Shown piece by piece: positions 44,423-46,701 of a DNA stretch of 47,647 nucleotides. The stretch is from NCBI GenBank assembly GCA_030530605.1, contig JAUMUO010000003.1:47063-94709 (forward strand), in the 5' to 3' direction. A program made the position numbers and the translations under genes. Source of the DNA: Candidatus Saccharimonadota bacterium (GTDB lineage: Bacteria; Patescibacteriota; Saccharimonadia; Saccharimonadales; Saccharimonadaceae). The notes beneath the pieces are model-generated. The model did no database searches, was not told the DNA's origin, and saw nothing but the letters and a program-made list of their open reading frames with translations. Position 1 is the stretch's first letter. Each line of letters opens with the position of its first letter.

Positions 44423-44461
44423 ATCTTATATTATAACACAGCTTATGGTATAATTATGTTT

Positions 44462-45481
44462 ATGGATGGGCAATACCTTTCAAAACGAGTTCGGGCGACT
44501 GATTATTTGGTGGTGGCGCAGTTGTTTTTACAGTCCAATTTCCTGCTTGAGCGCGAACTAACTTTTGATGATATAAAGCCACGTTTACTTGGTCACTGGG
44601 GGACTTGCCACGGAATCGATTTAGCTTATTCGTGTCTGAAAGTATTTTTTGAAAACCGTAACAAAGACTTTTCATTTATTTTGGGGCCAGGGCACGGATT
44701 TCCAGCACTCCAAGCAAATTTGTTTTTAGACGGCGAGTTAGAGAAAATTGATCCCAATTTGAAAGGACTACCTGGAAATAATTTGGCTTATCTTTGTAAA
44801 CATTTTTCTTGGCCGGGTGGGTATCCGTCTCACGCTAGCCCGCTGACGCCGGGCGTAATTTGTGAGGGTGGTGAACTCGGCTACGCCCTGGGTGCGGCCT
44901 ATGGGGCGGCGCTGGGACATCCAGAAAAAACGATTGCGGTTTTAATTGGCGACGGCGAATTTGAAACTGCTACGGCGCTTGCTTCAATGAATTTAGTGAA
45001 ACTTTGTAACTCCAAACACCACGGAGCGGTCTTGCCGATTTTACATCTAAATAGTTATAAGATTTCCGGACCGACGATTTCGGGTAGAAAGTCCGAACGT
45101 GAACTATTTCACCAAATTCGTGGCTTTGGCTTTGAACCGATTTTAATTAACGGCACGCCGGGCTCGTTTGAACACGCTCTTTTAATTTCGGAAAGTTTTT
45201 ATGCTAAAATCCATAATGATAATGCTAAACTTGAAGACGCTTATGGTATTAAAGAGCATAACCGGATTCTTGATCCACCATTTATTATTATGAAGACCGA
45301 AAAGGGTGCTGGCGGTCCAGAATATGTAGCCGGCAAAAAAGTGGCAGGTAATTTCCTGGCACACCAAATTCCTTTGCCAAATGCCAAAACTGACCCAGAA
45401 GAATTAGCACAGCTTTCCGACTGGCTAAAGTCGTATCGCTTTAATGAATTGTTTGATGCCGAGAAAGGATTCTTATTATGA
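44462..45481 (+). CDS. Phosphoketolase, N-terminal (PP) half
   Basis: First of two genes that together make a phosphoketolase (xylulose 5-phosphate or fructose 6-phosphate to acetyl phosphate plus an aldose phosphate). This 339-residue part holds GHWGTCHG, GPGHG, EGGELGYALGAAYG, the thiamine-diphosphate motif GDGEFE and the late HQIPL histidine. Family members usually have GHWGTTPG and IHEGGELG; here these read GHWGTCHG and ICEGGELG. I choose ATG 44462 because TATAAT 44449-44454 is 7 bases before it; the ATG six bases earlier is too close. The last four bases (ATGA) overlap the second half. Confidence 0.9.
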   Translation: MDGQYLSKRVRATDYLVVAQLFLQSNFLLERELTFDDIKPRLLGHWGTCHGIDLAYSCLKVFFENRNKDFSFILGPGHGFPALQANLFLDGELEKIDPNLKGLPGNNLAYLCKHFSWPGGYPSHASPLTPGVICEGGELGYALGAAYGAALGHPEKTIAVLIGDGEFETATALASMNLVKLCNSKHHGAVLPILHLNSYKISGPTISGRKSERELFHQIRGFGFEPILINGTPGSFEHALLISESFYAKIHNDNAKLEDAYGIKEHNRILDPPFIIMKTEKGAGGPEYVAGKKVAGNFLAHQIPLPNAKTDPEELAQLSDWLKSYRFNELFDAEKGFLL

Positions 45482-46701
45482 GTTACTTAGATGAAATGCC
45501 AGATTTTGTTGAAAATCCCGGAGCAGAACAGTTCTCTTCTGCGAAGGCAATCGGGCATTTTCTAGCTTCAGAAATGAAACGCGACCCGCACCTATACTTG
45601 TTCTCGCCGGATGAAACTACTAGCAACAAGCTAGATGAAACCTATGGGGTTTCCAAACGGCTTTGGGACCTTCCGGAAGAAATCTGGGATTTGCCGGAGG
45701 CGAAAAACGGGCGGATTGTAGAACTACTTTCGGAAAATACCTTGTTTGCGATGATGGTTGGACATGTGCTTGGTAGCAAAGAACAGGCCTTTATGACGAG
45801 CTATGAATCTTTCTTCCAAATTATTTCTTCGCAAATTGTTCAGCATTTGAAATTCTTGAAGCAAGTGGAAGAGGCAGAGTGGCGCAAGGACGAGAACGGT
45901 AATCCTGAATTATTCCCGGCGATTAATTTGCTTTCTACTAGCACTTGCTGGCGCCAAGACCATAATGGGTTTTCACACCAGTCTCCGGCACTTATTTCTA
46001 CCCTGCTTTCAATTCCGAATCCACGAGTAAACTGTCTTTTCCCGATAGATGATGTAGCTTCGGCAGCGGCATTTGATTTTATGCTAGAATCTAGAAATGT
46101 TGTAAATCTTGCTACATTTAATAAGACTGACGAGCCACGCTTTATTGATAAAAATCACGCTTTGTTCCAACTTCAAAACGGCGGTGCGAGCGTATTCTCT
46201 TTCGCCTCAAATTGTCCTATGGAAGAGGAGCCGGACTATGTCTTTACGGCGGCGGGCGATATTGTTTCGCGCGAAGCAATAAACGCAGTAAAGATTTTGA
46301 ACGAAGATTTGCCGGAGATAAAAATTCGGTTCGTGAATATTGCGGCACTGTCTTACAATGCGATTGGTACGACAAAAAATCGTTTGTCTAATGAACTATT
46401 TGACCAATATTTTGGAAAGCACTGCGCGATTATCGCGAACTTCCACGGTTATCCGGAAACGCTGAAAAACATTTTAAAAAATTATGCCGACCCGATTCGG
46501 ATTCGGGCACACGGGTTTATGGAGCAGGGTTCTACGACCACGCCGTTTGAGATGCTGTCTCTAAACCAGACTTCGCGGTTTGACCTTGCGCTTGAAGTCG
46601 CACGCGACCAAAATAGAGAAGATTTAGTAGCAAAATATGAGGGACTCTTAAAATTAAACCACGAACACGCCTTAGAGCTCGGAATGGATTTACTTCTTTA
46701 A
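45478..46701 (+). CDS. Phosphoketolase, C-terminal (Pyr and C-domain) half
   Basis: Second part of the phosphoketolase, 407 residues. It contains SPDETTSNKL, LSENT with the catalytic glutamate (E86), the strongly conserved WRQDHNGFSHQ (159-168) and FMEQGSTTTPFEML. The two halves total about 746 residues against roughly 790-820 for the usual single chain; most of the missing length is the linker between domains. The ATGA overlap gives a one-to-one coupled translation signal. Both catalytic sets are retained, so a working two-subunit enzyme is likely. Confidence 0.9.
   Translation: MSYLDEMPDFVENPGAEQFSSAKAIGHFLASEMKRDPHLYLFSPDETTSNKLDETYGVSKRLWDLPEEIWDLPEAKNGRIVELLSENTLFAMMVGHVLGSKEQAFMTSYESFFQIISSQIVQHLKFLKQVEEAEWRKDENGNPELFPAINLLSTSTCWRQDHNGFSHQSPALISTLLSIPNPRVNCLFPIDDVASAAAFDFMLESRNVVNLATFNKTDEPRFIDKNHALFQLQNGGASVFSFASNCPMEEEPDYVFTAAGDIVSREAINAVKILNEDLPEIKIRFVNIAALSYNAIGTTKNRLSNELFDQYFGKHCAIIANFHGYPETLKNILKNYADPIRIRAHGFMEQGSTTTPFEMLSLNQTSRFDLALEVARDQNREDLVAKYEGLLKLNHEHALELGMDLLL

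Follow-up and report, generated by a model that had tools for sequence, protein, structure and literature searches.

A probable two-gene phosphoketolase without the interdomain linker in a genus of Saccharibacteria

Two overlapping genes in the window (the whole 47,647-nucleotide stretch of Candidatus Saccharimonadota contig JAUMUO010000003.1 analyzed here) very probably encode a genuine phosphoketolase that lacks the interdomain linker, is built like split-gene transketolase, probably as an alpha2beta2 assembly, and cleaves xylulose-5-phosphate (X5P). At the level of sequence, we found two conserved genes under purifying selection, with coupling signals and an active site complete across the pair, as well as the operon context and the pathway gene content, and from these we infer the assembly, stoichiometry, activity, and substrate of the enzyme. 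On this reading, phosphoketolase is the product of two short, overlapping genes throughout a genus of tiny Saccharibacteria associated with the gut, and the enzyme is likely key to energy gain, from pentose to acetate, without transketolase in a large group of host-dependent bacteria. After transketolase, it would be the second enzyme seen to lose its linker upon splitting, and the break would offer a natural split point for synthetic acetyl-CoA pathways, in which phosphoketolase is in demand. Open PMC papers, searched for split or two-subunit phosphoketolase and for phosphoketolase in connection with Saccharibacteria, contained no report of such an enzyme, with most subscription papers and preprints lying outside the search, and no two-subunit phosphoketolase was present among the structures searched.

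In the mechanism that we propose, a leaderless mRNA would yield the subunit carrying the thiamine pyrophosphate (TPP)-pyrophosphate (PP) domain, and ribosomes finishing at its TGA would re-initiate at the overlapping ATG, aided by an internal Shine-Dalgarno (SD) site, to make the subunit carrying the pyrimidine-binding (Pyr) and C-terminal domains. Two copies of each chain would come together in an alpha2beta2 heterotetramer, with TPP sitting where a PP domain meets the Pyr domain of a different chain, an arrangement like that of the single-chain dimer minus its linker. X5P, and possibly fructose-6-phosphate, would be converted with phosphate into acetyl phosphate and glyceraldehyde-3-phosphate. 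Acetate kinase would then form ATP from acetyl phosphate, and glyceraldehyde-3-phosphate dehydrogenase (GAPDH), phosphoglycerate kinase, and pyruvate kinase would gain further ATP from glyceraldehyde-3-phosphate.

Features of the locus

The source genome comprises 678 kb in 10 contigs and is 95.7% complete. The features of the locus, numbered by window position, are as follows.

44449..44454, + strand: probable -10 box TATAAT of a leaderless transcript, 7 nt 5' of the ATG at 44462 (sequence)
44462..45481, + strand: phosphoketolase N half (alpha), XFP_N, TPP-pyrophosphate domain, 339 aa, or 341 aa from the ATG at 44456 (Pfam, PDB, AF2/Foldseek)
45464..45469, + strand: internal Shine-Dalgarno-like site AAAGGA, inside the N-half frame, 8 nt 5' of the C-half ATG (sequence)
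45478..45481, + strand: ATGA stop/start overlap linking both genes (sequence)
45478..46701, + strand: phosphoketolase C half (beta), XFP (pyrimidine-binding) and XFP_C, 407 aa (Pfam, PDB, AF2/Foldseek)

An earlier note, made from the letters of the window alone, had described two separate open reading frames (ORFs) joined by an ATGA overlap, and these are present on the same strand at 44456/44462-45481 and 45478-46701. The three Pfam domains of phosphoketolase are spread across the two adjoining genes in family order and all over cut-off, with XFP_N in the N half (E = 1.3e-89) and XFP (E = 2.6e-41) and XFP_C (E = 5.6e-40) in the C half. The best PDB sequence match of both halves (3.2e-96 for the N half and 1.3e-80 for the C half) is 9cd3, by its entry title a single-chain phosphoketolase of a Candidatus Saccharibacterium. 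This protein (9cd3/9cd4, 799 aa) belongs to the same family and has the same domain order, and in the structure search it was 46% identical to the N half and 37% identical to the C half. However, it is one chain with a PP-Pyr linker, whereas the window pair is two chains and has lost the linker with its RMGxN motif. The note had placed the break exactly in the interdomain linker. The cut is not a clean one, since the two halves together cover phosphoketolase except for about 36 linker residues.

Active site and family membership

Active-site positions were mapped through alignments with the phosphoketolases of Bifidobacterium breve and Bifidobacterium longum. All 20 active-site and TPP positions checked match the family, and 19 of them are invariant in 112 sequences (111 split sequences and that of genome G360), the position of Y217 varying in a single sequence. 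The catalytic and TPP/Mg residues of B. breve that are kept include H64, H97, H142, G155, N215, Y217, K300, H320, Q321, S440, E479, Y501, H548, N549, H553, and K605, so the complement of catalytic residues claimed earlier is indeed complete across the two halves. We take the role of each mapped residue to be that assigned from the B. breve structures; entries for the B. breve mutants H64A, H142A, H320A, and H553A were among the structure-search matches.

All mapped active-site residues are common to the window pair and the phosphoketolases of Bifidobacterium, Lactococcus, and Synechococcus (3ahc, 3ai7, 6gua, and 8io8), but the latter are single chains. To our knowledge, phosphoketolase has always been described as one long chain. 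In place of a single polypeptide of about 800 aa, the window encodes chains of 339 to 341 and 407 aa, which score 330.7 and 274.7 bits against the full-length NCBIfam phosphoketolase model, below its cut-off of 962, which is set for whole proteins, the halves having been scored separately. The pair is thus a variant of the phosphoketolase (XFP/XPK) family and not a standard member. In Synechococcus phosphoketolase, H706, Y710, and R711 form the ATP site (PMC10365998); by alignment reading, these residues are not conserved in the window pair.

Predicted structure and likeness to split-gene transketolase

AlphaFold2 models of the N half (pLDDT 89.7) and the C half (pLDDT 94.2) both had 9cd3 as their best Foldseek match. 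The nearest structure to the N-half model outside the phosphoketolases, at about 19% identity, is 6yak, the split-gene transketolase of Carboxydothermus hydrogenoformans, which is an active alpha2beta2 heterotetramer with the PP-Pyr linker missing (PMC7661550). The window pair has the same PP/Pyr break, no linker, and two chains, and it follows the layout of split-gene TPP enzymes, in which one chain carries the PP domain and the other the Pyr and C-terminal domains. The parallel that had been drawn with split transketolases is therefore apt, although the enzyme in 6yak is a transketolase and the window pair a phosphoketolase. Since only single chains were folded, assembly of the window pair, probably as alpha2beta2, is argued by analogy.

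Split transketolase has been described as confined to archaea and certain thermophilic bacteria (PMC7661550). Transketolase_N was found in 136 of the 199 family genomes, in frames of about 290 aa and in most genera of the family. Judging by these N-domain frames, the transketolase of other Saccharibacteria of the family looks like a split gene too, one widespread in Saccharibacteria. It resembles the window pair in this respect but is a different enzyme, and none of the 136 positive genomes carries the split phosphoketolase.

Gene neighborhood and pathway context

Transketolase, transaldolase, and 6-phosphofructokinase were not detected in the source genome, and 6-phosphogluconate dehydrogenase (6PGD) was found in none of the 60 genus genomes searched, for which reason the oxidative pentose phosphate route was rejected as the source of X5P. 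These absences rest on a completeness of about 96% and on agreement across the genus, and nearly all genomes in the analysis are probably metagenome assembled. Escherichia coli deoABCD, fbaA, and tktA queries had no match in the source genome at an E value of 1e-3, a search that is weak for distant homologues. Genes for GAPDH, RpiB, Rpe, and a PfkB-family kinase stand in a row in the source genome at about G000:C8 35026-38119, and the kinase beside rpe is closest to ribokinase models, below their cut-offs. The source genome has one acetate kinase gene (ackA), which is present in 91 of 100 genus genomes, and a candidate phosphotransacetylase gene (pta) from a single tblastn match. The split phosphoketolase appears to be the only enzyme of these cells for breaking down five-carbon sugar phosphates. 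Gene content and operon context together make conversion of ribose-5-phosphate via X5P to acetyl phosphate and glyceraldehyde-3-phosphate the likeliest route, with fructose-6-phosphate possibly an additional substrate.

In the window's genus, the split pair is often near a PBP1/PIN gene pair instead of ackA. In genera g11, g12, and g59 and in the split g9 species, the order is N half, C half, and ackA on one strand, the halves lying directly upstream of acetate kinase. The fused gene precedes ackA on one strand in g3, g40, and g9, and T. rhizospherense has the same phosphoketolase/acetate kinase neighborhood (PMC6031116). The position of ackA directly downstream in sister genera points to acetyl phosphate as the product. 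It thereby counts against the possibility that the halves cooperate in an altered reaction or on an altered substrate, such as a transketolase-like transfer standing in for the missing transketolase. Such a change would suit a genome in which neither transketolase nor transaldolase was detected, and the active site may be more open once the linker is lost, an idea put forward for split transketolase (PMC7661550). However, the phosphoketolase positions are invariant, including the equivalents of the B. breve histidines H64, H97, H142, H320, H548, and H553, and we regard an altered reaction as improbable.

Translational coupling and leaderless start

The start of the C half overlaps the stop of the N half in 104 of 110 distinct split loci, most often (77 of 110) by the 4-nt ATGA, and the junction spacing ranges from -23 to +37 nt. 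A strict SD motif lies 5' of 68 of the 77 ATGA starts, compared with 4.3% of phase-matched control positions within these genes. Relative to the N frame, the C frame is in phase 2 in 80 loci, in phase 1 in 29, and in frame (phase 0) in 1. These differences in phase and overlap length argue for two proteins made by re-initiation rather than for programmed ribosomal frameshifting at the overlap, which would read both frames into one fused chain. Frameshifting would agree with frames that overlap and halves that are always neighbors, but the junction has a start codon with an SD site and lacks the linker by which fused relatives join their halves, which leaves frameshifting very unlikely.

Upstream of the N half, a TANAAT box lies 6 to 7 nt 5' of the ATG in 92 of 116 split loci. 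The start at 44462 used in the earlier note is probably right, since its TATAAT stands 7 nt upstream, the leaderless spacing seen genome-wide, and the N half seems to be translated from a leaderless mRNA. Among 609 ORFs of the genome, 111 have TANAAT at gaps of 6 to 7 nt before the ATG, against a background of about 6 per position, which suggests that this Saccharibacterium often transcribes its genes without a leader. An open-literature search returned no paper evidently about leaderless transcripts in Saccharibacteria.

Distribution of the split gene

XFP_N was found in 94 of 100 genomes of the same genus, every listed frame being at most 412 aa, and a fused phosphoketolase frame was found in none of the 100. 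Every one of the 119 split loci read has the C half 3' of the N half and on its strand; removal of duplicates left 111 split sequences, about 99 from the window's genus and 12 from other genera. Seven near relatives of the N half, all from Candidatus Saccharibacteria assemblies and five of them from ruminant gut, are split in every case. Within the family, the split also occurs in g11, g12, and g59 and in a single g9 species (G203) out of four, and the remaining genomes with a strong match have mostly single-chain frames of about 780 to 850 aa. No split form was found in the class and phylum samples outside the family, where all matches are one chain.

The split is real and not a sequencing error. 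A one-base error at the overlap, which had been named as a possible explanation, is excluded by the split loci of the genus and the 12 of other genera, with their two main phases and varying overlap lengths. The single-chain orthologs in close relatives that would have spoken for a recent frameshift were likewise not found in the genus, G360 being the sole exception in the wider sample, and the gene pair sought in relatives was adjacent and co-oriented in every split locus. The idea that the source genome was misassembled here or carries a pseudogene, decaying or frameshifted, for which one could cite the single chain as the norm in all other phylum families searched, is scarcely credible given the same split in many independent genus genomes, the active-site residues kept, and a low dN/dS (0.02 to 0.14 for the N and C halves in close pairs with measurable dS; many pairs are saturated, so the computed median of zero is meaningless).

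A segment around XFP_N positions 245 to 270 is absent in most of the genus, which has a shorter N half, and kept in the window's subgroup. A phage origin was rejected, there being no PHROG match, and matches in plasmid records were limited to phosphoketolase relatives of <60% identity.

Linker loss and evolution of the split

In fused relatives, about 36 residues separate the halves and in most contain the motif P....RMGxN..A.GG, searched for as a regular expression. Outside g9 and G360, the misses are visible near-variants, such as RMGSN and KTMGMN, and the window's proteins contain none of the motif. The motif is also absent from the fused proteins of g9 and G360, whose linkers are unrelated, in keeping with an ancestral split and later re-fusion. 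In the phylogenetic tree, the split sequences group with those of g9 and G360 in a single clade that is nested within the single-chain sequences. A topology holding the split sequences together without g9 was weakly rejected (p-AU 0.031), the grouping having been chosen after seeing the tree. The minimum number of state changes on the tree is three, with G360 left out, a count that does not separate re-fusion from repeated splitting.

The shared absence of the linker motif leans toward one split followed by re-fusion. Tentatively, and with a chance that we put slightly short of even, an ancestor of several genera that was already without transketolase would have split its phosphoketolase and lost the linker, the split enzyme becoming the only one to cleave pentose phosphates, and the halves would have been re-fused in g9 by an unrelated linker and in species G360 by a palindromic repeat, which would make the two states, split and single-chain, interconvertible in nature. 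The oligomer or the kinetics could differ now that the conserved linker is gone.

The join in G360 is an 80-nt palindrome with partial copies elsewhere in the genome. This dispersed repeat of some 80 nt, with GACGGGTCCTG ... arms, opens one continuous frame at the phosphoketolase junction (L100). Related copies in G360 lie at L207:5315, L218:9811, L214:5211, and L206:16313, and a similar palindromic element occurs as one copy in the window's own genome, at L176:10354 (G000:C4:50354).
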